From contig NZ_CP108514.1 in NCBI RefSeq assembly GCF_035989305.1, forward strand, positions 2,790,501 through 2,854,500: DNA of 64,000 nt, in the 5' to 3' direction. A program made the translations under genes and the position numbers. A model generated the notes under the pieces. It was given only the letters and a program-made list of their open reading frames with translations. It had not been told where the DNA came from and searched no databases. Positions 9,441 through 55,882 of the stretch are shown piece after piece. Position 1 is the stretch's first letter. Each line of letters opens with the position of its first letter. Source of the DNA: Streptomyces sp. NBC_01233 (GTDB lineage Bacteria > Actinomycetota > Actinomycetes > Streptomycetales > Streptomycetaceae).

Positions 9441-10313
9441 TCAGGCGCGGGCAGGACGGCCGGGGGCCGTGAAGCGGGGGACCGGGCCGGATCCGGGCGG
9501 CCCGCGGCGCACCACGGCGTGGGCGTGCACGGCCCCGCGCAGGCGGCGCGGCCGCTCGCAGGGTGCGGGGAAGGCGGGCGGGGCCGGTACGGCGGCCGCC
9601 CGCGCCCGCACCAGGGCGAGTGCGCGGGCGAGCGGTCGGGCCGCGTGCAGTGCGGCGGCGCCCAGGACCCGGGCCAGCCGGAAGACGGCGGCCTCGCCGC
9701 GCGCCAGCCAGGCGGCGCAGAGCAGTCCGGCGAGCAGGTGCGCGGCGATCATCCCGACGCCGCCGTCGGCGGCCATCCAGGCCATGTCGGCCATGCCCGC
9801 CAGATCGGCCGTCCCGGCCGCATCGGCCATCCCGGCCGGGTCCGGCATCCCGGCGACATCGGCCATCCCGGCCCCGTCCGGCATCCCGGCGACATCGGCC
9901 GTCCGAGCCGCGTCCGCAACCCCGGCGGCATCGGCCGTCCCGGCCGCGTGGGCCATGCCCGCCACATCAGCCGGGTCCCCCGCACCGGGGATGCCGGCCG
10001 CGGGCATGTGGTGGTGGTGCCCCTCCGCCGCCGCGGGGGCGGCGGCGACGTGCACCGCGGCCCGGCTCCCCGAGAAGACGAGGTGCAGCACCCCCTGGAC
10101 GGCGAGCACGGCCGCGGTGATCCCCACGGGCCCCCGCCGCCGCCCGGCGGCGAGGCAGGCGAGCCCGCCGGTCACGGCGAAAGCGCTCAGAAGACCGACC
10201 AGGGGGATATCCGTACCGGACATGTACGAATGCCCCACCGCACCCAAAGCCACGCACATCGCCGCGAATATTGCGGCCCGCGTGGCGCGCAGGGGCGCGG
10301 ATTCCTCAGACAT
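9441..10313 (-). CDS. Membrane protein with Met/Ala/Gly/Asp hexapeptide repeats and a His cluster
   Basis: The 290-residue protein has about three N-terminal membrane helices (residues 12-30, 38-60 and 68-85) and then GHHHHMPAAG. Next comes a repeat of roughly eleven six-residue units of the form x-D-x-A-G-M (for example ADVAGMPDGAGM), a further hydrophobic segment (MIAAHLLAGLLCAAWLARG) and a basic Pro/Ala-rich tail. It lies 79 bases upstream of the PepSY gene on the same strand and is probably cotranscribed with it. Clustered His and regularly spaced Met suggest binding of a soft metal such as copper in an extracytoplasmic loop; this is inference from composition. The ATG at 10313 was chosen over an upstream ORF start because the latter overlaps the divergent gene. 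Confidence 0.72.
   Translation of the reverse strand: MSEESAPLRATRAAIFAAMCVALGAVGHSYMSGTDIPLVGLLSAFAVTGGLACLAAGRRRGPVGITAAVLAVQGVLHLVFSGSRAAVHVAAAPAAAEGHHHHMPAAGIPGAGDPADVAGMAHAAGTADAAGVADAARTADVAGMPDGAGMADVAGMPDPAGMADAAGTADLAGMADMAWMAADGGVGMIAAHLLAGLLCAAWLARGEAAVFRLARVLGAAALHAARPLARALALVRARAAAVPAPPAFPAPCERPRRLRGAVHAHAVVRRGPPGSGPVPRFTAPGRPARA
9778..9976 (-). repeat. Degenerate 18-bp tandem repeat within the Met/His-rich membrane protein
   Basis: About eleven units of 18 bases encode the hexapeptide series x-D-x-A-G-M/T/V. On the plus strand the unit looks like CCGGCGACATCGGCCAT with variants. The period is kept throughout while individual bases drift, as expected for an expanded coding repeat that is translated in one frame. 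Confidence 0.75.
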
Positions 10314-28246: not shown

Positions 28247-29248
28247 CTACGGTGCCTGCGCCGTGGAGCCCCTGACCACCAGCTCCGGCTGGAACACGTA
28301 CTCCGTGCGCTGGACCGGGGTGCCCGAGACCGCCTCCAGGAGGGCGCCCACCGCCGCCGTCGCCATGGCGCGCACCGGCTGGCGGACCGTCGTCAGCGGC
28401 GGGTCCGTGAACGCGATCAGCGGGGAGTCGTCGAAGCCGACCACCGACACGTCCTGCGGCACCCGCAGGCCCCGCTCGCGCGCCGCGCGGATGACGCCCA
28501 GCGCCATCGGGTCGCTGCCGCACACGATGCCCGTGCAGCCGCGGTCCAGCAGGGCCATGCCCGCCGCGTGGCCGCCCTCCACCGTGAACAGGGTGCGCTG
28601 GATCAGGCCTTCCGCCTCGGCCTCCGGCACGGCGGCCAGGAACCCCTGCTCCTTGCGCGCCGACGGCACGTACCGCGTCGGGCCGATCGCCAGACCGATC
28701 CTCCGGTGGCCCAGGTCCTCCAGGTGCCGCACGGCCATGTCGGCCGCCGCCCGGTCGTCCGGGGAGACGAAGGGCGCGCTGATCTGCTCGTTGAAGCCGT
28801 TGATCAGTACGAAGGGGACCCCGCGCGCGGCGAGCCGCTGGTAGCGGGACGGGTCCGCGTGGGAGTCCGCGTGCAGGCCCGACAGGAAGACCATCCCCGT
28901 GACGCCGCGCTCCTCCAGCTGCTCCACCAGCTCGTCCTCGGTGGCCCCGCCCGGGGTCTGCGTGCACAGCACCGGCGTGTATCCGTGCCCGGCCAGCGCC
29001 TGCTCTATGACCTGCGCGAAGGCCGGGAAGATCGGGTTGGTGAGCTCCGGGATCAGCAGCCCGACCAGGCCGTTGCTGCGTCGCTTGAGCCGTGCGGGCC
29101 GCTCGTAGCCCAGCAGGTCGAGGGCGGCCAGCACCTTGTGCCGGGTGCCGGCCGCGACGCCCGCCTTGCCGTTGAGCACGCGGCTGACGGTCGCCTCGCT
29201 GACCTGGGCCTGCGCGGCGATGTCCGTGAGCCGGAGGGGGGAGGTCAC
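28247..29248 (-). CDS. LacI-family repressor, MalR paralogue, last gene of the mal operon
   Basis: The 333-residue protein has a LacI helix-turn-helix (LTDIAAQAQVSEATVSRVLNGKAGVA), hinge and sugar-binding domain (LVGLLIPELTNPIFPAFAQVIEQAL, DVSVVGFDDSPLIAFTDPPLTTVRQPV). It closely resembles the protein at 37073-38113; by eye roughly 60% of positions agree, including the full recognition helix SEATVSRVLNGK, so both may bind similar operators. Its GTG overlaps the aglA stop by four bases (GTGA at 29245-29248), placing it in the malEFG-aglA transcript. The inducer is presumably a maltodextrin. In S. coelicolor the characterised MalR corresponds better to the other copy; this one is a second regulator. 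Confidence 0.9.
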   Translation of the reverse strand: MTSPLRLTDIAAQAQVSEATVSRVLNGKAGVAAGTRHKVLAALDLLGYERPARLKRRSNGLVGLLIPELTNPIFPAFAQVIEQALAGHGYTPVLCTQTPGGATEDELVEQLEERGVTGMVFLSGLHADSHADPSRYQRLAARGVPFVLINGFNEQISAPFVSPDDRAAADMAVRHLEDLGHRRIGLAIGPTRYVPSARKEQGFLAAVPEAEAEGLIQRTLFTVEGGHAAGMALLDRGCTGIVCGSDPMALGVIRAARERGLRVPQDVSVVGFDDSPLIAFTDPPLTTVRQPVRAMATAAVGALLEAVSGTPVQRTEYVFQPELVVRGSTAQAP

Positions 29249-30894
29249 CCCGACGTCACCTGCCACCACACCGTGGTGTCGGCCGGCAGCACGCCGTCCG
29301 CGACCGCCTCGCCGCTGGACAGCAGGGCCTCGCCGGCGACGGGGAACCGTACCGCCGTGCCGGTGGTGTTGGCGGTGCAGAGGAAGTCCCCGCGGCGGAA
29401 GACCAGAACGCCGGCGGGAGCCTCCTGCCAGTCCACCGACTCGCCCGCGCCCAGGTCGTCGCGCTCGCGGCGCAGCCGCAGGGCGGCCCGGTACAGCTCC
29501 AGGGTGGAGGACGGGTCGCCGGTCTGCGCCTCCACGCTCAGCTCCGCCCAGGAGTCCGGCTGCGGGAGCCAGCTGCCGCCGGTGCCGAAGCCGTACGGGG
29601 CCTGCGTACCCGACCACGGGATGGGGACCCGGCAGCCGTCGCGGAAGCCGTCCTGTCCCGCCGCGCGGAAGAACGACGGGTCCTGGCGGACCTCGTCCGG
29701 CAGGTCGGTGACGTCGGGCAGGCCGAGCTCCTCGCCCTGGTAGACGTACGCCGAACCGGGCAGCGCCAGCATCAGCAGGCTCGCCGCGCGGGCCCGCCGC
29801 AGACCGAGCTCGCGGTCGCCGGGCTCGCGCAGCTGGGTGCCGAGGCCGGCGGGGTTGGCGAAGCGGGTGGCGTGCCGGGTGACGTCGTGGTTGGACAGCA
29901 CCCAGGTGGTGGGGGCGCCGACGGGGCGCATCGCGGCCAGCGAGCCGTCGATGACCTCGCGGAGCGCGGTCGCCTCCCAGTCGCTGGTCAGGTACTGGAA
30001 GTTGAACGCCTGCTGCATCTCGTCCGGGCGGACGTAGCGGGCCGTGCGTTCGACGGTCGGGGTCCATGCCTCGGCGACCAGGACGCGGTCGCCCTCGTAC
30101 TCGTCGAGGATCCGGCGCCAGGAGCGGTATATCTCGTGGACGCCGTCCTGGTCGAAGAAGGGCATGACGTCGTTGCCGAGCAGCTTGAGCTGGTCCTTGC
30201 CACCGAGGTCGGGCAGGCCGGGCGCCTTGACCAGGCCGTGGGCCACGTCGACGCGGAAACCGTCGGCGCCGAGGTCGAGCCAGAAGCGCAGGATCGAGCG
30301 GAACTCGTCCCGGACGGCCGGGTGCTCCCAGTTGAAGTCGGGCTGCTCGGGTGCGAAGAGGTGCAGGTACCACTCCCCGTCCGCGATCCGGGTCCAGGCG
30401 GGCCCGCCGAAGATCGACTCCCAGTCGTTGGGCGGCAGTTCGCCGTTCTCACCCTTGCCGGGACGGAAGTGGAAGCGCTCCCGCAGCCGGGACCCGGGGC
30501 CTTCGCGCAGTGCCTGCTTGAACCATTCGTGCTGGTCGGAGCAGTGGTTCGGGACGAGGTCGACGATGATGCGCAGGCCCAGTTCGTGGGCCTCGCGGAT
30601 CACGGCGTCGGCGTCGTGCAGGGTGCCGAACATCGGGTCGATGGCCCGGTAGTCGGCGACGTCGTAGCCCGCGTCCGCCTGCGGGGAGGCGTAGAAGGGG
30701 CTGAGCCAGACGGCGTCGACGCCCAGCTCCTTGAGGTAGGGCAGGCGGCTGCGGATGCCTTCGAGGTCCCCCATGCCGTCCCCGTTGGAGTCGGCGAAGC
30801 TGCGCGGATAGACCTGGTAGATCACCGCGTCTCTCCACCAGCCGGGCAGGGTGCCGGTGGAGGTGGGAAGTGCGTCGGCGAGGTGCTGGGTCAT
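29245..30894 (-). CDS. aglA: Cytoplasmic GH13 alpha-glucosidase
   Basis: The 549-residue enzyme has no signal peptide. It starts WWRDAVIYQVYPRSFADSNGDG, the hallmark of GH13 oligo-alpha-glucosidases, and carries VDLVPNHCS, the nucleophile in ADGFRVDVAHG (Asp near 214), VLVAEAW (Glu near 275) and LSNHDVTRH (Asp near 333). The uninterrupted stretch DPSFFRAAGQDGFRDGCRVPIPW is important for comparison with the copy at 34326. The enzyme should release glucose from the maltodextrins imported by MalEFG. It is 47 bases behind malG, has an AAGGACG ribosome site, and overlaps the following LacI gene by four bases. Confidence 0.94.
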   Translation of the reverse strand: MTQHLADALPTSTGTLPGWWRDAVIYQVYPRSFADSNGDGMGDLEGIRSRLPYLKELGVDAVWLSPFYASPQADAGYDVADYRAIDPMFGTLHDADAVIREAHELGLRIIVDLVPNHCSDQHEWFKQALREGPGSRLRERFHFRPGKGENGELPPNDWESIFGGPAWTRIADGEWYLHLFAPEQPDFNWEHPAVRDEFRSILRFWLDLGADGFRVDVAHGLVKAPGLPDLGGKDQLKLLGNDVMPFFDQDGVHEIYRSWRRILDEYEGDRVLVAEAWTPTVERTARYVRPDEMQQAFNFQYLTSDWEATALREVIDGSLAAMRPVGAPTTWVLSNHDVTRHATRFANPAGLGTQLREPGDRELGLRRARAASLLMLALPGSAYVYQGEELGLPDVTDLPDEVRQDPSFFRAAGQDGFRDGCRVPIPWSGTQAPYGFGTGGSWLPQPDSWAELSVEAQTGDPSSTLELYRAALRLRRERDDLGAGESVDWQEAPAGVLVFRRGDFLCTANTTGTAVRFPVAGEALLSSGEAVADGVLPADTTVWWQVTSG

Positions 30895-30941: not shown

Positions 30942-31787
30942 TCAGCCCTTGGTGGCGCCTGCGGTCATTCCGGCGACGAGGTGACGCTGGGCGAAAACGA
31001 AGAAGATCGCCGCGGGGATGGCGATGAGGACTGAGGCGGCGCTCATCGCACCCCAGTTGGAGGTGTACTGCGTGACGAAGGTCTGCAGTCCGCCGGCCAG
31101 GGTGAGGTTCTCCTCGCCGACCATGAAGGCGGAGGCGTACGCGACTTCGCCCCAGGCGGTGATGAAGGCGTAGAAGCCGGTGACGGCGAGGCCGGGCTTG
31201 GCCAGCGGCAGGATCAGCCGCCAGAAGGTGCCGAAGGGGTTGAGCCCGTCGACCCGGCCGGATTCGTCGATCTCCACCGGGATGGTGTCGAAGAAGCCCT
31301 TCATCATCCAGGCGCAGAACGGCACGGCGATGGTGAGGTAGGTGATGATCAGGCCGACCGGCTGGTTGAGCAGGCCGAGGTCGCCCATCAGGTTGTAGAG
31401 CGGCACGATGAGGATCGCCATGGGGAACATCTGCGTGATGAGCAGGGTCCACATGAGCGGCTTCATGCCGGGGAACTTGAAGCGGCTGACCGCGTATCCG
31501 GTGGTGGCGGCGATGAACACACCGAGGACGGTGGTGACGCCGGCGACCAGGACGGAGTTCCCGAACCAGCTGAGGAAGTGGCTCGACTCCAGCAGGTACG
31601 TGTAGTTGCCGAGGGACGGTTCCTTGATGAAGTCCGTGGTGACCGCGTGCTCGGCGGGCTTGAGCGAGGTCAGCAGGATCCACAGCACCGGGAACACGGC
31701 GATGACGGACGCGCCGAGCAGGGTGAGGTGCAGGCCGACGGAGGCGAGCGGGGCGCGGGCGCCCCGAGTGCGGGTGGTCATGGTCAC
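30942..31787 (-). CDS. malG: Maltose/maltodextrin ABC transporter permease MalG
   Basis: The protein of about 281 residues has six membrane helices and the inner-membrane signature for ATPase contact, EIDESGRVDGLNPFGTFWRLILPLAKPG (EAA motif near 190). The N-terminus is short, as in MalG rather than MalF. It forms the membrane pore with MalF; the ATPase is not encoded here and is probably the shared MsiK, as known for Streptomyces sugar importers. GTG at 31787 overlaps the malF stop by four bases (GTGA), with GGAGAGG four bases upstream; an ATG two codons later at 31781 is also reasonable. Confidence 0.94.
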   Translation of the reverse strand: MTMTTRTRGARAPLASVGLHLTLLGASVIAVFPVLWILLTSLKPAEHAVTTDFIKEPSLGNYTYLLESSHFLSWFGNSVLVAGVTTVLGVFIAATTGYAVSRFKFPGMKPLMWTLLITQMFPMAILIVPLYNLMGDLGLLNQPVGLIITYLTIAVPFCAWMMKGFFDTIPVEIDESGRVDGLNPFGTFWRLILPLAKPGLAVTGFYAFITAWGEVAYASAFMVGEENLTLAGGLQTFVTQYTSNWGAMSAASVLIAIPAAIFFVFAQRHLVAGMTAGATKG

Positions 31788-32824
31788 CACACCTCTCCCT
31801 GCTTGCGCAGCGAGCGCCGGTAGACCAGCGCGAAGATCATGAGCAGGGCGAGGATCAGTACGCCCCAGGTCGCGGAGCCGGCGAAGTCGCGCGGGCTCGC
31901 GACGAACGCCTCGCGGAAGGCCTGCGTCACCAGGATCTCGGTGGAGTCACCGGGTCCGCCGCGGGTGAGCAGGAAGATCACCGGGAACATGTTGAAGGTC
32001 CAGATGGTGGAGAGCAGGATCACCGTCATGCTCACCGCGCGCAGCCCGGGCAGCGTGATGTGCCGGAAGCGCTGCCAGGCGCTCGCGCCGTCCATCTCGG
32101 CGGCCTCGTAGAGCTCACCGGGGATGGACTGCAGTCCGCCGAGCAGGGCGACCATCATGAACGGGACGCCGAGCCAGACGTTGACGGCGACGACCGAGAA
32201 CTTGGCCCAGGTCGGGTCGTCGAGCCACGGGATCGCGGCGATGCCGCCGCCGTCGAGGATCTTGTTGAGGATGCCGTTGTCGCGGTTGAACAGGAACCGC
32301 CACGCGAAGACCGAGACGAAGCCGGGGACGGCCCAGGGCAGGATCAGCGCCATCCGGTATGCGGCGCGGCCCCGGAAGTCCCGGTTGAGCATGTTGGCCA
32401 GGACCAGGCCGAGCGTGAAGGTGATCGACACGCACGCGACGGTCCACACCACCGTCCACACCAGCCGCTGCAGGAACACCGGGTCGCTGAGCACGGCCGC
32501 GTAGTTGTCGAGTCCGACGAACTCGTACGTGGCCTCGATGTGGCGGGCGCCGATGGTGCGCGAGACGTTGCGCTCGTTGGCGTCGGTCAGCGACAGGTAG
32601 ATGCCGCGGACCAGCGGCCAGCCGATGATCACGCCGAGGACGAGCACCACCGGGGCGATCATCGTCCAGGCGTACCAGTGGGTGGCGAGGGCGCGCCCCA
32701 GTCCCCCCTTGGTCCCACCGGGGGCCTTGCTGTCAGTCCTGCGGCTCAGGCCGCGGGCGGCGGCGTCGTTCTCGACGTCGTCGCCCGCGGCCTTCGCCAC
32801 CGACTGGCTGGTGTGAGCAGCCAT
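31784..32824 (-). CDS. malF: Maltose/maltodextrin ABC transporter permease MalF
   Basis: The 346-residue protein has a hydrophilic N-terminus of about 50 residues, then six to seven membrane helices (first one WTMIAPVVLVLGVIIGWPLV). The EAA-type coupling motif is GELYEAAEMDGASAWQRFRHITLPGLR (near 240), which docks to the transport ATPase. It pairs with MalG. The malE stop lies seven bases upstream of the ATG, and the malG start overlaps its stop, so malE-malF-malG are one transcript. No ATPase gene is present, consistent with use of a general ATPase encoded elsewhere. Confidence 0.94.
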   Translation of the reverse strand: MAAHTSQSVAKAAGDDVENDAAARGLSRRTDSKAPGGTKGGLGRALATHWYAWTMIAPVVLVLGVIIGWPLVRGIYLSLTDANERNVSRTIGARHIEATYEFVGLDNYAAVLSDPVFLQRLVWTVVWTVACVSITFTLGLVLANMLNRDFRGRAAYRMALILPWAVPGFVSVFAWRFLFNRDNGILNKILDGGGIAAIPWLDDPTWAKFSVVAVNVWLGVPFMMVALLGGLQSIPGELYEAAEMDGASAWQRFRHITLPGLRAVSMTVILLSTIWTFNMFPVIFLLTRGGPGDSTEILVTQAFREAFVASPRDFAGSATWGVLILALLMIFALVYRRSLRKQGEVW

Positions 32825-32831
32825 GGTTTCG

Positions 32832-34103
32832 TTACTTCCAGCCCTTGAGGATCTTGCGGAACTCGACGCCGGCCGTCTTGGCCGCGTCCTCCGGGCTCGA
32901 CGCCCCGGTGATCGCCTTGGTGTATTCGACCTTCAGCGGCTCGAAGAGGGAGCCGTTCTCCGGGATCCAGGCGCGCTCGACGGCCTTGTCCACGGCCGGC
33001 TTGAAGAACTGGACCATCTCGCTGCCCTTGACGTCCGGCTGCTCGTAGGCGGCGGTACGGGTCGGCAGCAGGCTCAGGTCCTTGGCGGACTGCACCTGGA
33101 CCTCCTGCGAGGTCATGTACTCGACGAAGGCGTGCGCGGCGGCGCGGTTCTTGGAACCGGCGTAGACGCCGAGGTCGTGGCCGCCCTGCGGGGCGCCGGC
33201 CTTGACGGAGCCGGCCGGGACGGCGGCGACGCCGAGGTTGGCCTTGTCCTTGAACTGGTCACCGGCGTAGGTGTCGGCGACGGCCCACGGACCGTTGATC
33301 ATCATGGCGGCCTCGCCGGACTTGAAGGCCGTCTGCATGTTGGTGTAGCCGTCCGTGGCGTTGGTGACCGCCGCGCCGGAGGTGACCAGGTCACGAGCGG
33401 TCTTGAAGGCCTTGACGCCCGCCGCGTTGTCGACGGTGACCGTCTTGTTCTTCGCGTCGACCAGGTCGCCGCCCTCGCCGTAGATCAGGGGGAGGAACCA
33501 GTAGGAGTCGTCGCCGCGCAGGTAGAGGCCGGCCTTGCCGGACTTCGCCTTGATCGCGGCGGCGGTGCTCTTCAGCTCCTCCAGCGTCTTGGGGGGCTGG
33601 ACGCCGGCGTCAGCGAGCATCTTCTTGTTGTAGAAGAGGCCGAGGGTGTCGATGACCTGCGGCACGGCGTAGGTCTTGCCCTCGTACTTGCCGCTGGCCG
33701 CGGCCTGCGGCAGGAACTCGGCGTCGACCTTCTTCGCCGTCTCGGCCGGGACCTCGTCGAGGTAGCCCAGCGAGGCGAAGTCCGCGACCCAGCCGACATC
33801 GGCGCGGATCACGTCAGGCGCGTCGGAGCCGCTGCTGAAGGCGTTCTTGACCTTGTTCTGCGCATCGCCGTACGGAACGTTGACGTACTTGACGGTCACC
33901 TTCGGGTGCTTCGCGGTGAACGCCTCGGCGATCTTCTGGAAGCTGGCCTTCTCGGCGTCGTTCGAGGTGTCCCACCACGTGACCGTGCCGGAAAGCTCGC
34001 CGCCGGCGTTGGTCCCGCCGTCGTCCTTGGTGTCACCGCCGCAAGCCGTCGCCGCGAGCGCCAGGGTCGCGACCAGCGCGGTGGCCGCTATGCCACGCCG
34101 CAT
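32832..34103 (-). CDS. malE: Maltose/maltodextrin-binding lipoprotein MalE
   Basis: The 423-residue protein begins with RRGIAATALVATLALAATACGG, a lipoprotein signal with the lipobox LAATAC, so it is anchored on the outer face of the membrane. The mature part has the solute-binding fold: GTVTWWDTSNDAEKASFQKIAEAF, AVPQVIDTLGLFYNKKMLADAG and AAMMINGPWAV, the last being typical of maltose/trehalose-binding proteins. It delivers maltodextrins to MalFG. The ATG at 34103 has a perfect GAAGGAG site. The MalR-like operator at 34188-34208 lies in its promoter. It is the first gene of malE-malF-malG-aglA-lacI. Confidence 0.95.
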   Translation of the reverse strand: MRRGIAATALVATLALAATACGGDTKDDGGTNAGGELSGTVTWWDTSNDAEKASFQKIAEAFTAKHPKVTVKYVNVPYGDAQNKVKNAFSSGSDAPDVIRADVGWVADFASLGYLDEVPAETAKKVDAEFLPQAAASGKYEGKTYAVPQVIDTLGLFYNKKMLADAGVQPPKTLEELKSTAAAIKAKSGKAGLYLRGDDSYWFLPLIYGEGGDLVDAKNKTVTVDNAAGVKAFKTARDLVTSGAAVTNATDGYTNMQTAFKSGEAAMMINGPWAVADTYAGDQFKDKANLGVAAVPAGSVKAGAPQGGHDLGVYAGSKNRAAAHAFVEYMTSQEVQVQSAKDLSLLPTRTAAYEQPDVKGSEMVQFFKPAVDKAVERAWIPENGSLFEPLKVEYTKAITGASSPEDAAKTAGVEFRKILKGWK

Positions 34104-34325: not shown

Positions 34326-37046
34326 ATGACCCACGAGTCGACGGCCGTCCAGCTTGCAAGCTCTTCCAGCAACGCGACCGCGAGGGGTGGCTGGTGGCGC
34401 GATGCAGTCATCTATCAGGTGTACGTGCGCTCCTTCGCCGACAGCGACGGCGACGGCGTCGGCGACCTGCGCGGGGTCCGCTCCCGCCTCCCCCACCTCG
34501 CCCGCCTCGGGGTCGACGCCGTGTGGCTCACCCCCTTCTACGTCTCCCCGCAGGCGGACGGCGGCTACGACGTCGTCGACTACCGGGCCGTCGACCCGCT
34601 CTTCGGGGACCTCTCCGACGCCGACGAGCTCGTCCGCGCCGCGCACGAGCAGGGGCTGCGGGTCATCGTGGACGTGGTGCCGAACCACACCTCCGCGCAG
34701 CACCCGTGGTTCCGCGCCGCCCTCGCCGGGGATCCGGCGGCGCGGGCGCGCTACCTCTTCCGCCCGGGGCGGGGGGCCGACGGCTCGGAGCCCCCGAACG
34801 ACTGGGAGTCGATCTTCGGCGGCCCGGCCTGGACCCGGGTCGCGGCGCCGGCAGGCGATGGGGGCACCTCCCAGCCGGAGGCTGGGGGAGAGTGGTACCT
34901 GCACCTCTTCGCCCCCGAGCAGCCGGACCTGGACTGGGACCACCCGGAGGTCGCCGCCGAATTCGCGTCCGTCCTGCGGTTCTGGCTCGACCTCGGCGTC
35001 GACGGCTTCCGCGTCGACGTGGCCCACGGCATGGTCAAGGCCGCGGGCCTGCCGGACATCGGCCGCGGCGCGCAGGCCACCCTGATCGGGACCGAACCGC
35101 TCCCCTTCTTCGACCAGGACGGGGTCCACGAGATCCATCGCGGGTGGCGCCGGCTCCTGGACTCCTACGAGGGCGACCGCATCGGCGTCGCCGAGGCCTG
35201 GGCTCCCACCTCCGAGCGCCTCGCCCTGTACGTCCGCCCCGACGAACTCCACCAGGCCTTCAACTTCCGCTTCCTCAATTGCCCGTGGGACCCCGCCGCG
35301 ATGCGCACCGTCATCGACGAGTCACTGGCCGCCACCACCTCGGTCGGCGCCCCGACGACGTGGGTGCTGTCCAACCACGACGTCGTACGCCATGTGACCC
35401 GGTACGGGGGCGGAGCCCGCGGCCTGGCCCGGGCCCGGGCCGCCGCCCTGCTGATGCTGGCCCTCCCCGGCTCGGCGTACCTCTACCAGGGCGAGGAACT
35501 CGGCCTCCCGGAGGTCCTGGACCTCCCGGACGAATCCCGCCGCGACCCGGCCTTCCGCCGCGGGCGCCGCCGGCAGATCCCCGGGGCCGAGCCCGAGCTC
35601 GCCCCGGGAACCGGGCCAGCCGCATCTCCGCTCAGCGGAGCCGCGCCGCCGGCCGAGCCCGCTGCCGGCCCGGGGGGCGTGCCCGGAGCCCCCGCCGGAA
35701 CCGGCGTCCAGGCCGAGCCGCAGGCCGGAACCGGCCCCGCCGCTGCCACCGCCACGCACGCGGCCACGAGCCGGACCGCGTCCGTGTCCGCACCCGTGCC
35801 GCAGGCACAGTCCCCCGCCGGACCGATCGTCGAGCAGCGGGTGGTATCCGAACCCGCCGCCGGAACCGGCGTCCACGCCGGGCAGCAGGCCGGGGCGGGC
35901 ACCGGCCCCATCGCTCCCGTGCAAGCGGCCACGAGCCGGACCGCGTCCGTATCGGCACCCGCGCCGCAGGCACAGTCCCCCGCAGGGCCGGGTCCGACGG
36001 CACAGGCCGGACGCACCGACGGGCCGCAGGCCAACGTGGTCACCGGGCCGGAGGCCGGGGCAGGCACCGGGCCCGAGGCCGGGGCAGGCACCGGGCCCGA
36101 AGCCGGGGCAGGCACCGGGCCCGAAGCCGGGGCAGGCACCGGACCGCAGGCCGGGGCAGGCACCGGACCGCAGGCCGGGGCAGGCGTCGGGCCCGAGGCC
36201 GGGGCAGGCACCGGACCCGAAGCCAGGGCAGGCACCGGACCGCAGGCCGGGGCAGGCACCGGACCGCAGGCCGGGGCAGGCACCGGACCGCAGGCCGGGG
36301 CAGGCACCGGACCGCAGGCCGGGGCAGGCACCGGACCGCAGGCCGGGGCAGGCACCGGACCGCAGGCCGGGGCAGGCACCGGACCGCAGGCCGGGGCAGG
36401 CACCGGACCGCAGGCCGGGGCAGGCACCGGGCCCGAAGCCAGGAGGGGTCCCGGGCCGCGGGCCCGAGTAGGTGCCGGGCCGGAGGCCGAGCCGCAGACC
36501 GGGCCGGAGGCCCACGCGCAGGCGGGTGCCGGGCCGCAGGCCGGAGTAGGCGTCGGGCCAGGAGTCGATCTGCGGTCCGGGCCGGAGGCCGACGGGCAGG
36601 AGGGGTTGCGGGACGGGTGTCGGGTGCCGATTCCCTGGTGCGGCGCGGAGCCGCCGTACGGCTTCGGGCCGACCGGGAGCTGGCTCCCGCAGCCGGCCGG
36701 CTGGGGCGGTCTCACCGTCGCCGCCCAGACCGGCGACCCGCACTCCACCCTGGAGCTCTACCGCGCCGCCCTGGAACTGCGCCGGGCGATGCCCGGCCTC
36801 GGCGCCCCGGAGGCGGGCACCGGTCCCGCCGCCGAAGCCCCGTACCTCTCCGGGATGCGCTGGCTGCCCGCACCCGAGGGAGTGCTCCTCTTCACCCGCC
36901 CCGGTTTCGCCTGCACCCTCAACAGCCGCCCCGACCCGGTCGAACTTCCCGCGCCCGGACGTCCCGTACTCTCCAGCTCCCCCGTGGAGACGGACGGCCG
37001 CACCGTCCGCCTTCCGCCGGATTCGTGCACGTGGTGGGCAATTTGA
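34326..37046 (+). CDS. GH13 alpha-glucosidase paralogue interrupted by a long repeat insertion
   Basis: The 906-residue protein aligns with the aglA product along its whole catalytic part: WWRDAVIYQVYVRSFADSDGDG, VDVVPNHTS, VDGFRVDVAHG (Asp near 229), GVAEAW (Glu near 288), LSNHDVVRH (Asp near 351). It then leaves the family at DPAFRRGRR (near 413) and rejoins it at GLRDGCRVPIPW (near 759). In aglA those points are joined by about nine residues. The roughly 345 inserted residues are Gly/Ala/Pro/Thr/Gln-rich and include 17 octapeptide units of the form TGPQAGAG. A smaller insert (AGDGGTSQPEAGGE, near 178) comes from a palindromic repeat. The reading frame stays open to the normal C-terminus CTWWAI. 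No Shine-Dalgarno is seen before the ATG at 34326. It is divergent from malE and 26 bases upstream of malR. Confidence 0.88.
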   Translation: MTHESTAVQLASSSSNATARGGWWRDAVIYQVYVRSFADSDGDGVGDLRGVRSRLPHLARLGVDAVWLTPFYVSPQADGGYDVVDYRAVDPLFGDLSDADELVRAAHEQGLRVIVDVVPNHTSAQHPWFRAALAGDPAARARYLFRPGRGADGSEPPNDWESIFGGPAWTRVAAPAGDGGTSQPEAGGEWYLHLFAPEQPDLDWDHPEVAAEFASVLRFWLDLGVDGFRVDVAHGMVKAAGLPDIGRGAQATLIGTEPLPFFDQDGVHEIHRGWRRLLDSYEGDRIGVAEAWAPTSERLALYVRPDELHQAFNFRFLNCPWDPAAMRTVIDESLAATTSVGAPTTWVLSNHDVVRHVTRYGGGARGLARARAAALLMLALPGSAYLYQGEELGLPEVLDLPDESRRDPAFRRGRRRQIPGAEPELAPGTGPAASPLSGAAPPAEPAAGPGGVPGAPAGTGVQAEPQAGTGPAAATATHAATSRTASVSAPVPQAQSPAGPIVEQRVVSEPAAGTGVHAGQQAGAGTGPIAPVQAATSRTASVSAPAPQAQSPAGPGPTAQAGRTDGPQANVVTGPEAGAGTGPEAGAGTGPEAGAGTGPEAGAGTGPQAGAGTGPQAGAGVGPEAGAGTGPEARAGTGPQAGAGTGPQAGAGTGPQAGAGTGPQAGAGTGPQAGAGTGPQAGAGTGPQAGAGTGPQAGAGTGPEARRGPGPRARVGAGPEAEPQTGPEAHAQAGAGPQAGVGVGPGVDLRSGPEADGQEGLRDGCRVPIPWCGAEPPYGFGPTGSWLPQPAGWGGLTVAAQTGDPHSTLELYRAALELRRAMPGLGAPEAGTGPAAEAPYLSGMRWLPAPEGVLLFTRPGFACTLNSRPDPVELPAPGRPVLSSSPVETDGRTVRLPPDSCTWWAI
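34860..34889 (+). repeat. Miniature palindromic repeat inside the alpha-glucosidase paralogue (copy 2)
   Basis: GGGGGCACCTCCCAGC, then CGGAG, then GCTGGGGGA. CTCCCAGCC and GGCTGGGGGAG pair as a hairpin. It matches the element at 8727-8756 at all positions outside the loop, but is read in a different frame (giving GGTSQPEAGG). In aglA the corresponding segment is absent (TRIADGEWYL), which shows insertion of about 12 codons. Confidence 0.78.
35566..36602 (+). repeat. Low-complexity insertion: 165-bp duplication and 17 units of a 24-bp repeat
   Basis: The insert has three parts. First, a Pro/Ala/Gly-rich region in which a segment of about 64 bases, encoding TSRTASVSAP then PQAQSPAGP, occurs twice (35761-35824 and 35926-35989), 165 bases apart and in frame. 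Second, an array with an exact 24-base period: the codons for [EQ]-A start at 36051 and every 24 bases to 36435, giving 17 units. Units 9-16 (36241-36432) are almost identical copies of the GGACCGCAGGCCGGGGCAGG type. Third, a decaying tail to about 36600 (GPRARV, GPEAEP, GPEAHA). All indels keep the frame. Confidence 0.92.
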
Positions 37047-42484: not shown

Positions 42485-43369
42485 ATGGCTGACCAGCAGC
42501 TTAGCGCGCCTGCGCGCGTCCCGTCGGGAATCCGACACGTCAACCACGACCACCGCCGCGGCTACGTCAAGATCGGCAACCACCTTGCCCAGCACCGCCA
42601 ACTGAGCATGGCGGCGATCGGCCTGGCCACGCACATCCAGTCGCTCCCGACCGGCTCCAAGGTGACCATCAAGGCCCTCGCCGAGCGCTTTCCGGAGGGT
42701 GAGGTCCGCATCGCCACCGCCCTGCGCGAGCTGGAGCGGCACGGCTACCTGGCCCGCTTCCAGGAGCGGCTTCCGTCGGGGCGCGTCGTGACCTGCACGG
42801 TCTCGTACAACAACCCGCCCGCGATGGCCGACGCGACCCGCGGGCCGCAGGTCCCACCCCGGCGGTCCGAGCCGAAGCCCGCCCCCCAGCCGGACCCGGA
42901 TCCGGAGCCCGAACCGGAGCCTGAGCCCGAACCGGAGCCTCAGCCCGGCCCGGAACCCGCGCCCGAACCCGTCGCGCCCGAGGTCGAGTGGGAGGCGCGG
43001 GAACTGCTGGCCCGGCTGCGCCTGCGCGACCCGCGGCTGCTGCTGTCCGAGCGAGACACGGTACGGCTGGCGCCCGCCGCGGCCGTATGGCTGGAGCGCG
43101 GGCTGGCGCCGAGCGCCGTCACGGCGGCTCTCACGCGCTCGCTTCCGACGGCGGCGATCCACGCGCCCGCCGCGCTGCTCGCCCACCGCCTGCGGGAACT
43201 GCTGCCGCCCCGGCTGCCGGACCCCTGGGCAGCCCACGCGCCCGGCCCGGACCGCGCCGTCCACCCGCTCCGCACGTGCGACGGCTGCGAACGCGCCTTC
43301 CGCTCCCCCGCCCCCGGCCGCTGCCGGAACTGCGCCCCGCCGTCGGCCACGGCGGCACCTGCCGCCTAG
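42485..43369 (+). CDS. Helix-turn-helix protein with Pro-Glu linker and C-terminal zinc-ribbon motif
   Basis: The 294-residue protein starts with a winged-helix region (GYVKIGNHLAQHRQLSMAAIGLATHIQSLP, then VTIKALAERFPEGEVRIATALRELERHGYLARF). A PE-rich linker follows (about residues 125-165, repeated PEPEPEP), then a helical middle domain. The last part has CDGCERAFRSPAPGRCRNC, two CxxC pairs that can bind zinc. The helix-turn-helix resembles that of replication-initiator-like and GntR-type DNA-binding proteins found singly in Streptomyces genomes. Function is unknown. The stop overlaps the first arm of an inverted repeat (43370-43396). Confidence 0.82.
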   Translation: MADQQLSAPARVPSGIRHVNHDHRRGYVKIGNHLAQHRQLSMAAIGLATHIQSLPTGSKVTIKALAERFPEGEVRIATALRELERHGYLARFQERLPSGRVVTCTVSYNNPPAMADATRGPQVPPRRSEPKPAPQPDPDPEPEPEPEPEPEPQPGPEPAPEPVAPEVEWEARELLARLRLRDPRLLLSERDTVRLAPAAAVWLERGLAPSAVTAALTRSLPTAAIHAPAALLAHRLRELLPPRLPDPWAAHAPGPDRAVHPLRTCDGCERAFRSPAPGRCRNCAPPSATAAPAA

Positions 43370-48612: not shown

Positions 48613-49113
48613 CTACACGCCGTGCAGTTGCGACTGCGACAGGAACTGGTTGCCGAGCCCGGTGTCGTTGCGGGTGATGTAGCCCGAGGCGCCGCGCAGC
48701 GCGGTCTTCTCCCCGGCGAGGCGGCCCATCAAGGTCTTCACCTGCTGGTCCCACGTGTCCGCCACCTTCTTCAGGCCGGCGGCCGTCTCCCAGCCCTCGA
48801 AGCCCTTCTGGGCGTTGCCGGTGGCGTCGTCCGCGTGTTCCGCGGCCGTCTTGGTGGCGTGCTCCAGCTCGTTCTCGATCGTTTCCGCCGCCGCCCTCTT
48901 CTCCGCGGGCGTCGAGGCGAAGTCCTTGGAGCCGCCCGGAGTGAACAGCCCCGACGACGGCGGGGTGACCCCCGGAGCGTACGGAACCACCGACGGCGCG
49001 GTGACGCCCGGAGCGTACGGGCCGGGCGGCGGTGCGGTGACGCCCGGAGCGTACGGGCCCACCGGCGGCCCGCTGTTTAACCGCATACCCACCTGGCCGA
49101 GATCATCTGACAT
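48613..49113 (-). CDS. Small ESX-like protein with PYAPGVT repeats, first gene of the cassette
   Basis: The 166-residue protein has a Pro-rich N-terminus in which PYAPGVTAP-type units occur three times (residues 18-50), then a helical domain: PAEKRAAAETIENELEHATKTAAEHAD, GFEGWETAAGLKKVADTWDQQVKTLMGRLAGEKTALRGASG. The two helices with Trp near the turn resemble ESX/PE-type secreted helical hairpins, but the exact WXG is lacking. It precedes the larger WXG-like gene by nine bases, as esx partners often do. The ATG at 49113 is used because GGGGAGG lies seven bases before it; a GTG two codons upstream is too close to that site. Confidence 0.75.
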   Translation of the reverse strand: MSDDLGQVGMRLNSGPPVGPYAPGVTAPPPGPYAPGVTAPSVVPYAPGVTPPSSGLFTPGGSKDFASTPAEKRAAAETIENELEHATKTAAEHADDATGNAQKGFEGWETAAGLKKVADTWDQQVKTLMGRLAGEKTALRGASGYITRNDTGLGNQFLSQSQLHGV

Positions 49114-52227: not shown

Positions 52228-52396
52228 CCCGCCGCCTCCTGCGGTTGTCGCTGCCACTGCCCTGGCGTGCCTGTGGTGAGCGTAGCCGGAGCAGGCGTTC
52301 GACTCACCGGCAGTACCATGACGGGGATTATCGGATTATCCGAATATTTGGTGTGTGATGGGGCCCGCTCCCCGCCGACCGGCCAGGAGGAGCCCC

Positions 52397-55300
52397 ATGT
52401 CCGACGGACACCCCCGCCCCGGCCGGAACGGCCGGCCGGAGGCCTGGCCGTCGCCCGACGGGCCCGAGGACCGGACCTACCAGACCTACCAGGCCGATCC
52501 CCTCCAGCCCCACCCGACCCACCACTCTCACCAACACCAACACCCTTACGCGTTGCACCAGCCCGAGCCTGGCCACGCACCGCACGAGGCCGAGCGCGCC
52601 TGCGCGCACGACGAGCCCGGCCATGCCTACGCACCTCAACAGCCCCAACAGGCCTACCCGTACCCCCAGACCGACCCGACCCAGCAGGCCTCTCCGCACC
52701 ACAGGGCGGGGCCGACCCAGCACGCCTACCGGGCCCACTGGCCTCACGAGGCCGAACAGGCCTACCCGCCGCACGGGGTCGAGGCCCACGCATCCCAGCC
52801 GCACGGGGCCCAGCAGGCCCAGCACTCCCACCTGACCCACCAGACGGGCGGGCCCGAGGCGTACGGGCCCGAGGCGTACCAGCCCGAGACGTACGGGCCT
52901 CAGCAGGCCGGGGAGAACCAGGCGTACCGGCCCCGGCAGTCCCAACAGGACCCGCAGGCCCACCCGTACCAGGGGACAGAGCCGGGCCGGCACGGCCACT
53001 TGCCCCACCAGGCCGGGGAGGCCCGGGCCCACGGGCCCCAGCAAACCCAGCAGGCCCACGCGTACCACCAGGCCGACCCGACCCAACACGCCTACCAGGC
53101 CCATGGGCCTCACGAGGCCGAGCAGGCCTACCCGCCTCACGGATCCGACGCTCACGCGTACCCGCCACACGAGGCCGAGGCCCACGCGTACCCGCCTCAC
53201 GGAACCCAGCAGACCCAACACCCCCGCCTGCCCTACCAGGCGAGCGAGCCCTACGCGCCCCAGCAGGCCCGCGAGCCCGAGACCTGCGGGCCCCGGCAGA
53301 CCCGACAGGCCGACCCGCACCCCGAGGCCGGGCAGGCCCCCCACGCGTCCGTGCCCCACCAGGCGGGAGCGGCCCAGGCCCACGGGCCCCAGCAGACCCA
53401 CCCGTCCCACCAGGCCGACCTGCACCATGACGCGGAGCCGACCCCGCACGCCTACCCCTCTCCCCGGGCCGAGCAGGCCCCGGCTCACCGGCAACAGCAG
53501 GTCCCGCGGGAAACCCCGCCCCGCCAGGCCCGCCGGCCCGATGAGGCCCAGGAGGCCCCGGAGGATCCGGAGGGCGAGGTTCTGGAGGCCGAGGATCCGG
53601 CCGGCGGGCGGAAGGCCGCGCGGGCGGCCCGTGAGGCCGAAGGTACCGGTGGCGGCGGCCGGCGCGGCCGCGCGGAGGCCCCCGCCGCGCCGCGGACCGC
53701 ACGCGGGCGCCGCCGCGCCCGCGGCAAGGACGGCTCCGGCGGCGCGGACGGGCCCGGTCCCGAGGCGGCGGCGGGCGACCGCGAAGCGCCCAACCCCCGC
53801 CACCACCGGGCCCGCCTCGTCAAGACCGTCGCCTTCTGCGCCGCCACCGCCGCCTGCAGCATGCTCGTGCTCCGCGGCAACGCGGCCCTCGACGGCCTCG
53901 CCTCCCCCACCGACCCCGACAGCGCGGCCTCCGCCCCCGCGGCCGTCGCCGACGCCCCGGACCCCGGCCGGGTGCTCCAGATCATCGCGCACCCCGACGA
54001 CGACCTGTACTTCATGAATCCGGACCTCCGTTACTCCATATCCACCGGTCACCCCGTGACCTCGGTCTACCTCACCTCCGGCGAGGCGGACGGCATCAAC
54101 GCGGGCGCCGCCAAGGAGGCCACCACCACCCCCGACAAGGCCGCCTACGCCGAGGCCCGCCAGAACGGCATCCGCGCCGCCTACGCCAAGATGGCCACCG
54201 GCGACCGCAGCAGCGCCTGGAAGCGCAGCGTCGTCCCGACGAAGGGCGGCGGCCACGCCGAGGTCGACGTCCTCGTCGCCAAGCCCGAGGTCAACCTGGT
54301 CTGGCTGCAGCTCCGCGAGGCCGGCAACACCTTCGCCGACGTCCCGGAGAGCCTGCACGGCCTGTGGGACGGCAAGGTCGCCCGGCTGGATTCGATGCTC
54401 GCCTCCGGATCCCCGGTCAAGCAGAGGTTCTCGTACTCGAAGGACCAGGTCGTCCAGACCCTCGTCGGCGTGCTGGAGCAGTACAAGCCGACCACCGTCC
54501 GCTCCCAGGACCCGACACCCGGCCGCCTCCCCGACACCAAGCGGTACACCGACCACCAGGACCACTTCTACGGCGCCCGCTTCGTGCAACTGGCCACCGC
54601 CGCCTACGCGAAGGACGTCAAGGACCGCCCGCACTTCGCGGTGCAGAACTACCTCGGCTACTTCAACGGCTCCCTCCCCAGCGCGCTGGACCCGGACGAG
54701 GCCAAGGAGAAGCTGGACATCCTGGACACCTATGCCTGGCTCGACCGGCAGAACCACTGCGGCAGCGACGCGGGCTGCGGCGACCTCAAGGTCGCCGACC
54801 ATCCGGCCGGCAACCGGTGGTCGGACTCCATCAACTACGCCCGCGGCAACAGCACCACCTGGCTGACCTCCGACAAGGAGCACGGGCTGTGGGCCTTCAA
54901 GGTGCTCGACGGCCAGGTCGCGGTCTGGCACCGGCCCGGTCTGGTCGGCCGCTGGACCGGGCCGGACCTGCTGCCCGGCACCGGCATGGATCCGGGCGTC
55001 GGCACCGTCACCCTCAAGGACGGCCGGATAGCGGTCTTCGGCACCCGCACCTCCTTCGGCGCGAAGCCCACCGACTACAAGCGCGAGGTCGTCCACAGCG
55101 TCCAGAAGGCGGCGGGGGCCAAGGAGTTCGGGGAGTGGCAGTCGCTCGGCACCCCCGAGACCGCGGACGAGACCTGGACCTCCGACATCAGCTCCCCGGC
55201 CGTCTCGATCGACGGCACGGGCCAGTTGGCGGCGTACGTCCGCGACGGTTCGTACACCCTGCGCGGCCGGGTGCAACGCGCGGACGGCGGTTGGGGGCCC

Positions 55301-55882
55301 TGGGAGAAGTACGGCGGCGCCGATCTGCACGGCACTCCGGCCACGGCGACCGACGGCGCCGGGCGGCGCATGGTCTTCTCCGCCACCTCCAAGACGGTGG
55401 TGGGCTGGGTGCAGCCGAAGCCGGGTGCCCCGCTGGGCCCGGTCACGCCCACGGGGCTGCCGGACACCACGCTCCCGCTGACCGCGGAGGGACGCGAGGG
55501 CGGGGTGCGGCTGTGGTTCCGCAAGCCCGGGTCGGGCAACGTCCGTACGGCCCTGATGACGGGCGACGGCGGGCTGAAGCTGAACAACATGACCGACCTC
55601 GGAGGGCTCCAGGGCTTCGGCTCGGTGACGGCGAGCGGTCACGTGCTGGCGGGCCGCTCGGCGGGCGGGCAGCTGGGCACGGAGATCGGCCCGGGCCGGC
55701 CGTGGGAGCGGTCGCCGCTGATGTTCGTCGGCGCGCCCTCCTCCGTGATGACTGGGAAGAGCATGGTCAGCCTGGCGGTGGTGGGGCTCGACGCACGGCT
55801 GTACGTGACCTCGTCGGCCGACGCGCCGGACGCGCACCTGGCGCCGTGGCAGCCGGTGGGGCCGCGCAACACGGCCCCGTAG
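52397..55882 (+). CDS. Membrane-anchored PIG-L deacetylase with a 450-residue Q/H/A/P/Y-rich N-terminal region
   Basis: The 1,161-residue protein has three parts. Residues 1 to about 390 are low in complexity and rich in Gln, His, Ala, Pro, Tyr and Glu, with loose repeats such as EAEQAYPPHG, GPQQTQ and DPTQHAY. Residues about 390-470 are basic and Gly/Arg-rich. One membrane helix (VAFCAATAACSMLVLRG, near 475) follows. Outside lies a PIG-L deacetylase domain (IIAHPDDDLYFMNPDL near 528, ARQNGIRAAYAKMATGDR and TDHQDHFYGARF), with the zinc ligands in HPDDD and HxxH. The remaining 400 residues are a beta-propeller-like domain. PIG-L enzymes remove acetyl groups from N-acetylglucosamine conjugates. 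AGGAGG precedes the ATG. Its paralogue follows at 56175 without the N-terminal part. Confidence 0.88.
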   Translation: MSDGHPRPGRNGRPEAWPSPDGPEDRTYQTYQADPLQPHPTHHSHQHQHPYALHQPEPGHAPHEAERACAHDEPGHAYAPQQPQQAYPYPQTDPTQQASPHHRAGPTQHAYRAHWPHEAEQAYPPHGVEAHASQPHGAQQAQHSHLTHQTGGPEAYGPEAYQPETYGPQQAGENQAYRPRQSQQDPQAHPYQGTEPGRHGHLPHQAGEARAHGPQQTQQAHAYHQADPTQHAYQAHGPHEAEQAYPPHGSDAHAYPPHEAEAHAYPPHGTQQTQHPRLPYQASEPYAPQQAREPETCGPRQTRQADPHPEAGQAPHASVPHQAGAAQAHGPQQTHPSHQADLHHDAEPTPHAYPSPRAEQAPAHRQQQVPRETPPRQARRPDEAQEAPEDPEGEVLEAEDPAGGRKAARAAREAEGTGGGGRRGRAEAPAAPRTARGRRRARGKDGSGGADGPGPEAAAGDREAPNPRHHRARLVKTVAFCAATAACSMLVLRGNAALDGLASPTDPDSAASAPAAVADAPDPGRVLQIIAHPDDDLYFMNPDLRYSISTGHPVTSVYLTSGEADGINAGAAKEATTTPDKAAYAEARQNGIRAAYAKMATGDRSSAWKRSVVPTKGGGHAEVDVLVAKPEVNLVWLQLREAGNTFADVPESLHGLWDGKVARLDSMLASGSPVKQRFSYSKDQVVQTLVGVLEQYKPTTVRSQDPTPGRLPDTKRYTDHQDHFYGARFVQLATAAYAKDVKDRPHFAVQNYLGYFNGSLPSALDPDEAKEKLDILDTYAWLDRQNHCGSDAGCGDLKVADHPAGNRWSDSINYARGNSTTWLTSDKEHGLWAFKVLDGQVAVWHRPGLVGRWTGPDLLPGTGMDPGVGTVTLKDGRIAVFGTRTSFGAKPTDYKREVVHSVQKAAGAKEFGEWQSLGTPETADETWTSDISSPAVSIDGTGQLAAYVRDGSYTLRGRVQRADGGWGPWEKYGGADLHGTPATATDGAGRRMVFSATSKTVVGWVQPKPGAPLGPVTPTGLPDTTLPLTAEGREGGVRLWFRKPGSGNVRTALMTGDGGLKLNNMTDLGGLQGFGSVTASGHVLAGRSAGGQLGTEIGPGRPWERSPLMFVGAPSSVMTGKSMVSLAVVGLDARLYVTSSADAPDAHLAPWQPVGPRNTAP

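Follow-up and report, generated by a model that had tools for sequence, protein, structure and literature searches.

The window analysed here comprises 64,000 nucleotides of Streptomyces sp. NBC_01233 (contig NZ_CP108514.1, forward-strand positions 2,790,501 to 2,854,500) and contains a gene which we labelled aglB. Its product is predicted to be an alpha-glucosidase of GH13, the alpha-amylase family, with putative hydrolysis of alpha-glucosides, and a long in-frame repeat occupies the loop that follows strand 8 of its barrel. Judged from the sequences compared, this insert is a real coding minisatellite that recurs across the lineage and sits in the active-site loop of a metabolic enzyme under constraint, the activity of which is presumed. 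Long loops occur across the lineage, have arisen at one site with several repeat sequences and are nearly absent from the paralogue aglA. We consider it probable that aglB encodes a working enzyme with a translated, disordered minisatellite in a tolerant active-site loop, changed unit by unit through slippage or recombination under selection for frame and fold.

Repeat make-up and position of the insert

The features of aglB are as follows.
34326..37046, + strand: aglB, GH13 alpha-glucosidase with insert, 906 amino acids (open reading frame and Pfam; nearest structure CmmB)
35484..35507, + strand: YQGEELGL, barrel strand 8 region, residues 387-394 (strand 8 modelled at 383-387)
35562..36593, + strand: insert, beta8-alpha8 loop, residues 413-756, Gly/Ala/Pro/Thr/Gln-rich, without predicted structure
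35692..35990, + strand: 165-bp duplicated segment in the insert (Tandem Repeats Finder: period 165 bp, 1.8 copies, 83%)
36041..36430, + strand: 24-bp tandem array, octapeptide GTGP[QE]AGA (Tandem Repeats Finder: 16.2 copies, 94% matches)
36235..36426, + strand: eight identical 24-bp units in a row (exact 24-mer search)
36609..36638, + strand: RDGCRVPIPW, its first Arg being R762, aligned with HaG Arg400

No stop interrupts the 906 codons of aglB, and the product matches the Pfam domains Alpha-amylase (PF00128, residues 31-397, 298 bits) and, C-terminally, DUF3459 (PF11941, residues 811-904, 26.6 bits), both against a cut-off of 22; among the best 25 of 35 NCBIfam matches, none reached its cut-off. 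The catalytic residues Asp231, Glu290 and Asp352 (the nucleophile Asp, the acid/base Glu and the second Asp) are invariant in a 54-row alignment, as is RDGCR at 762-766. Both by sequence and by fold, the best PDB match was CmmB, titled a GH13_30 alpha-glucosidase (8yie/8yif), which makes aglB a candidate member of GH13_30. These data bear out a preceding sequence-only reading, which had described an in-frame repeat insertion in an otherwise complete GH13 alpha-glucosidase. It should be added that 283 of 2000 base shuffles also left a stop-free frame, so that the open frame alone argues little for coding; stronger evidence comes from the constraint, described below, on the residues that follow the insert.

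The insert replaces two residues between '..DPAFxR' and 'GQ[DE]GLRDGCR'. From YQGEELGL to VPIPW the spacing is 372 residues in aglB versus 30 in both the aglA of the window and the third paralogue of the genome, which gives a net gain of 342 in-frame residues; the insertion reported earlier stands, and its size, put at 345, is to be corrected. The 165-base duplication and the 24-base periodic array noted earlier were likewise recovered with Tandem Repeats Finder. One 24-mer is present in nine exact copies, eight of them consecutive, and the copy number of these eight identical units is the least certain part of the assembled sequence. A search of the 10.3-Mb genome with this 24-mer, allowing up to three mismatches, gave 13 matches, all inside the aglB insert, and the reversed control pattern gave none. 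At the protein level, one other diverged array of similar style was found elsewhere in this genome, at the C-terminal tail of a putative SDR protein (G000:C1:2250949-2251341, L211), which has 24-bp units of Gly/Thr/Pro/Glu/Ala octapeptide style, 55% identity to the insert over 135 residues (E 4e-19) and one TGA in the matched stretch; three further protein-level matches were weak (E 0.06-0.28).

Differences of the array from its consensus unit were synonymous in 17 of 31 cases, with 22 of the 72 possible changes being synonymous. Six units of the array strand (144 nt) self-folded better than all 200 shuffles (z -4.86), and such self-pairing fits slippage. The insert is an intragenic variable-number tandem repeat (VNTR, or minisatellite), a class judged here on lengths and motif spacing between close strains. 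Its Pro-Gln-Ala-Gly spacing presumably resembles that of disordered Pro-Xn-Gly (elastin-like / Pro-X2-Gly) polymers.

The AlphaFold model of aglB contains eight strands (28-34, 65-70, 112-117, 227-230, 286-289, 308-312, 344-347 and 383-387), after which residues 412-760 are without structure and of low confidence, with a predicted local distance difference test (pLDDT) of about 28-47 per block of the insert. These are followed by a helix at 808-821 and a C-terminal domain of good confidence. The order of strand 8, insert and helix 808-821 places the insert in the beta8-alpha8 loop; weak as the model is, this fits the position after strand 8 that had been proposed from the topology of the family. 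Five residues separate the insert from the first Arg of the pocket motif RDGCR. This residue, R762, aligns with HaG Arg400 by way of the alignment of aglA to HaG, and by the numbering offset between QsGH13 and HaG the latter corresponds to QsGH13 Arg396, named as a catalytic pocket residue (PMC8928221). In a GH13_31 relative, loop 8 is termed domain B' and forms part of the pocket (PMC10096246).

Loop length in close strains, across the genus and in aglA

Protein search yielded at least 7990 matches from 7996 candidates, of which the best 120 were analysed; as only best matches were taken, the sample leans towards insert-bearing forms. Their sources included S. virginiae, S. lavendulae, S. erythrochromogenes, S. 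yangpuensis, S. amritsarensis, S. avidinii and S. xanthophaeus. Among the 119 proteins parsed (P0093 was left out; 86 were distinct before the loop), the loop measured 9 residues in 12 and at least 20 in 107, with catalytic motifs and RDGCR intact in all 119. All 107 long loops ended in GQ[DE]G[LM]RDGCR, and 95 had an RRGR-like start. Intervals between P[QE]A motifs were 8 residues in 280 of 588 cases and a multiple of 8 in 393, while each of five residue shuffles contained 23-37 such intervals, 2-5 of them multiples of 8.

Of 1923 pairs that differ at no more than 12 positions ahead of the loop, 1799 had inserts of unequal length. Furthermore, eight proteins (P0013, P0017, P0034, P0037, P0040, P0043, P0047 and P0051) have exactly the same 351 residues ahead of the loop and show 0-3 differences in 130 from P0013 after it, with inserts ranging from 125 to 229. 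Recent expansion and length variation between strains, both anticipated from the near-identical array, are thereby substantiated, and the insert could be usable as a fine strain marker.

For the genus survey, 392 genomes were searched for aglB (295 of them also in an earlier search) and 103 regions were picked from the search rows, which do not represent all genomes of the genus; two of these were not aglB and 101 were. The loop could be read in 96 of the 101, measuring 8-9 residues in 59 and 12-351 residues in 37. The sequence-only reading had held that the frame was kept through every change; among the 96 orthologues whose loop could be read, not one was frame-broken there. The other five comprise G006 (TAG upstream of the loop), G012 (rearranged), G046 and G333 (contig ends before and inside the loop, respectively) and G010 (N run inside the loop). 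In G006 (L029) the TAG lies in the aglB frame, and beyond it the loop reads as 9 residues.

Repeat sequences vary by lineage and include GP[QE]A octapeptides, TTATT and AD in G386, AAG in L044, QDG in L036 and AEGAPD in G073. A tree built without the loop requires at least eight changes between long and short forms, six of them forced by strongly supported branches; with 37 of 96 loops long, a lone accident is ruled out. In a closer tree of 135 orthologues with aglA as outgroup, insert presence requires at least nine changes and insert-free rows are nested among insert-bearing rows. Such reversion to a short loop hints at allele replacement through recombination.

Of 95 distinct aglA copies, 93 have a 9-residue loop and the remaining two have 13 and 17 residues, and in the same set of loci 22 of 83 distinct aglB exceed 9 residues. 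In the 24 genomes with both genes read, aglA has 9 residues in all 24, whereas aglB has at least 24 in 8 and 9 in 16.

Constraint on the enzyme and the explanations weighed

Ratios of nonsynonymous to synonymous substitution rates (dN/dS) were calculated as medians over pairs of the 24 genomes with both aglA and aglB. Before the loop, aglB gave 0.129 for insert-bearing pairs (28), 0.154 for insert-free pairs (120) and 0.142 for mixed pairs (128); after the loop the values were 0.239, 0.189 and 0.223, respectively. Insert-bearing aglB is therefore under purifying selection on both flanks, about as constrained as its insert-free orthologues. Constraint on both sides argues that translation runs through the insert, and the translated product proposed earlier is supported by the selection on the C-terminal part. 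For aglA the corresponding values were 0.162, 0.103 and 0.190 on the upstream side of the loop and 0.397, 0.278 and 0.346 on its downstream side. Compared with these, aglB is higher before the loop in insert-free pairs and lower in the others, and lower throughout after the loop; aglB is thus not consistently relaxed relative to aglA.

Across 99 close pairs whose inserts are equally long, amino acid differences per site amounted to 0.0077 ahead of the loop, 0.0608 within the insert and 0.0037 behind it. The insert changes at 7.85 times the rate before the loop (7.7 times if the whole loop segment is counted), and as 7.85 approximates 1/0.129, this is roughly the rate expected of unconstrained residues. 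The residues of the insert thus change at a roughly neutral rate. Its hydrophobic content is close to what base composition would give (0.067 against 0.050 in shuffles), but its Arg content falls far short of that expectation (0.038 vs 0.203), a deficit that may reflect only which frame was expanded. A neutral expansion tolerated because aglA is intact had been suggested; the near-neutral residue rate upholds its first part, and redundancy with aglA is not a sufficient reason, since the enzyme around the insert is about as constrained as in insert-free orthologues.

Under the reading favoured here, aglB would encode a working maltose/maltodextrin alpha-glucosidase of the mal locus, with the beta8-alpha8 loop as a permissive site where GC-rich in-frame repeats arise. 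These repeats would expand, contract and be replaced fast through slippage or unequal recombination between units, and recombination with other alleles would sometimes replace them. Translation would give a single polypeptide, the long disordered chain leaving and re-entering the barrel near the active-site side and the two halves co-folding, and selection would purge frameshifts and damage to the flanking domains while hardly restraining the residues or length of the insert. The parts that we infer are the process of slippage or recombination, that the insert is translated and not removed, that the enzyme is still active, that the chain is disordered in the actual protein and that its length is nearly neutral.

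Several points weigh against this reading. Activity, expression and translation of aglB are deduced from sequence. The AlphaFold model is weak (mean pLDDT 52, predicted template modelling score 0.54), residues 761-803 just after the insert also have pLDDT below 50, and re-entry of the chain is not visible in it. The DNA fold of the six array units has an empty centroid, with no single hairpin favoured, and only two of the nine presence/absence changes in the closer tree are forced by strongly supported branches. Moreover, dN/dS of the C-terminal part is slightly higher with the insert than without (0.239 vs 0.189), the pairs overlap and are not independent, and the two rate comparisons draw on different strain sets. 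Finally, near-neutral residues leave room for selection on the length, disorder or composition of the insert, as in the depletion of Arg.

The alternative that survives best, though we regard it as unlikely, is a loop selected for tuning, in which the disordered chain serves as an entropic gate, a tether or a solubility/condensation tag, with copy number selected like a rheostat. The role of the related GH13_31 loop as domain B' within the pocket (PMC10096246), the recurrence of long loops in aglB with aglA so uniformly at 9 residues, and a Gly/Pro-rich insert depleted in Arg would suit it. Nevertheless, the residues change at a near-neutral rate, length varies widely among near-identical proteins, insert-free alleles occur among insert-bearing ones, and base composition alone accounts for the low hydrophobic content. 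Somewhat less likely again is the specific form in which the loop is an evolved rheostat, selectable chain length setting access, product release or enzyme assembly; if this were true, strains of one species could adjust how they use maltodextrin through the number of repeats, with the enzyme always retained. What speaks most for keeping the tuning hypothesis is that long loops are found in aglB and hardly in aglA, despite alike short loops and no relaxation separating the two genes.

Decay of a dispensable gene, with the insert accumulating in an aglB made redundant by aglA, we hold to be improbable. An intact aglA does lie beside aglB in the window, and in insert-free pairs dN/dS before the loop is higher in aglB than in aglA (0.154 vs 0.103), but both flanks of insert-bearing copies have a dN/dS well under 1, similar to the values without an insert, and neither a damaged motif among the 119 parsed proteins nor a broken frame among the 96 loops was seen. 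Less credible than decay is a mobile or copied repeat family that spread into permissive sites. The 24-bp array of the putative SDR protein is similar to that of aglB, yet at the DNA level no match within three mismatches lies outside the insert, and other aglB lineages carry unrelated repeats (TTATT/AD, AAG and QDG). An assembly artefact is very improbable: three other genomes do have a break in the locus, in the loop or close to it (the two contig ends and the N run), but the window lies inside a 10.2-Mb contig of a 4-contig genome, and inserts occupy this position in independent relatives too, many of them in the same octapeptide style. Least probable of all is the phase-variable switch entertained earlier, by which copy-number changes in the nearly perfect array would turn aglB off and on, since the 24-bp unit is a multiple of 3 and a change of whole units cannot shift the frame, and no loop read was frame-broken. 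As a contingency locus in which length alters the frame, aglB was accordingly rejected, in a test that concerned the frame.

With loops of 9 to 351 residues at a single point of a conserved catalytic domain, partly in near-identical enzymes, the aglB orthologues form a series of insertions provided by nature. The series makes testable which size of disordered loop is tolerated beside an active site, whether length affects catalysis, and whether minisatellites in the coding sequence of metabolic enzymes are carried along neutrally or serve for tuning.

The mal locus, related systems and other repeats in the window

The neighbours of aglB are as follows.
29245..30894, - strand: aglA paralogue with 9-residue loop (start codon inferred from sequence)
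30942..34103, - strand: malE-malF-malG-type transporter genes, divergent from aglB (names and malE start inferred by resemblance to the mal locus of PMC6988585)
37073..38113, + strand: LacI-family regulator (malR-like), directly downstream of aglB (start codon inferred from sequence)

The gap between aglB and the regulator is 26 bases, counted from the inferred start codon. The order lacI - aglA - malGFE - GH13 at the aglB place - malR - PAP2 is kept in 23 of 25 loci, the exceptions being L191, which ends with its contig, and L118, which is rearranged. At several loci the aglB place was labelled aglA because the longer aglA query scored more.

In the rearranged genome G012 (L118, L265 and L266), aglB and aglA are each interrupted near residue 339; their first halves stand on either side of malEFG, and some 77 and 107 kb away are the second halves, adjoining the malR-like and the other LacI gene. 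The second halves have a long, nearly identical protein stretch in common, as after gene conversion between an inverted aglA/aglB pair. The first half of aglB runs into a frame which we take to resemble DNA polymerase III alpha. In aglA, the nonsynonymous distance before the loop from G000 was 0.015-0.037 to G188, G227, G250 and G269 and 0.069-0.090 to the other 19 genomes. In this comparison of G000 with 23 genomes there seem to be two aglA allele groups, perhaps from horizontal replacement.

In Saccharopolyspora erythraea, malR and the alpha-glucosidase gene aglA are divergent from malEFG, and the aglB-malR side here resembles the malR/aglA side of that locus (PMC6988585). With the GH13_31 enzyme BspAG13_31A, where loop 8 is domain B', and with CmmB, aglB has family, catalytic residues, RDGCR and the loop 8 site in common. 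In GH13_31 this loop is folded with two helices (PMC10096246), whereas the aglB loop reaches 351 residues, is built of repeats and has no predicted structure; in CmmB it is short, like that of aglA, according to the alignment.

Coding repeats in an actinobacterium are likewise known from the pe/ppe genes (PE_PGRS) of Mycobacterium tuberculosis, where most length variants keep the frame (17 of 25 structural variants within pe/ppe genes; PMC12817950). They form a multigene family, in contrast to the loop of a conserved metabolic enzyme with none of 96 read loops broken. Prokaryotic low-complexity regions (LCRs) have been reported rich in G, A, P and Q (PMC6821194), a composition that resembles the aglB insert; unlike such LCRs and coding VNTRs, the insert lies in a catalytic domain beside the pocket, recurs at one site and is nearly confined to one paralogue. 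Among the matches listed for the open-licence literature on glycoside-hydrolase repeats, S. virginiae alpha-glucosidase, Streptomyces intragenic repeats and CmmB, the insert was not found.

Other repeats were observed in the window. An open frame of 1186 codons at 52322-55879 (+ strand), with third-position GC of 0.93, contains short Tyr/Pro/Gly/Gln/His-rich repeats (YGPEAY, HAYPPHG) at 52849-53203. At 48933-49069 a 36-bp repeat encodes VTPGAYGPGGGA-like 12-residue units in a 150-codon + strand frame, the - strand being open too. A Pro-Glu repeat (PEPEPEPE) is present in a 297-codon frame at 42888-42971, and an 18/36-bp array lies in overlapping open frames at 9770-9972.

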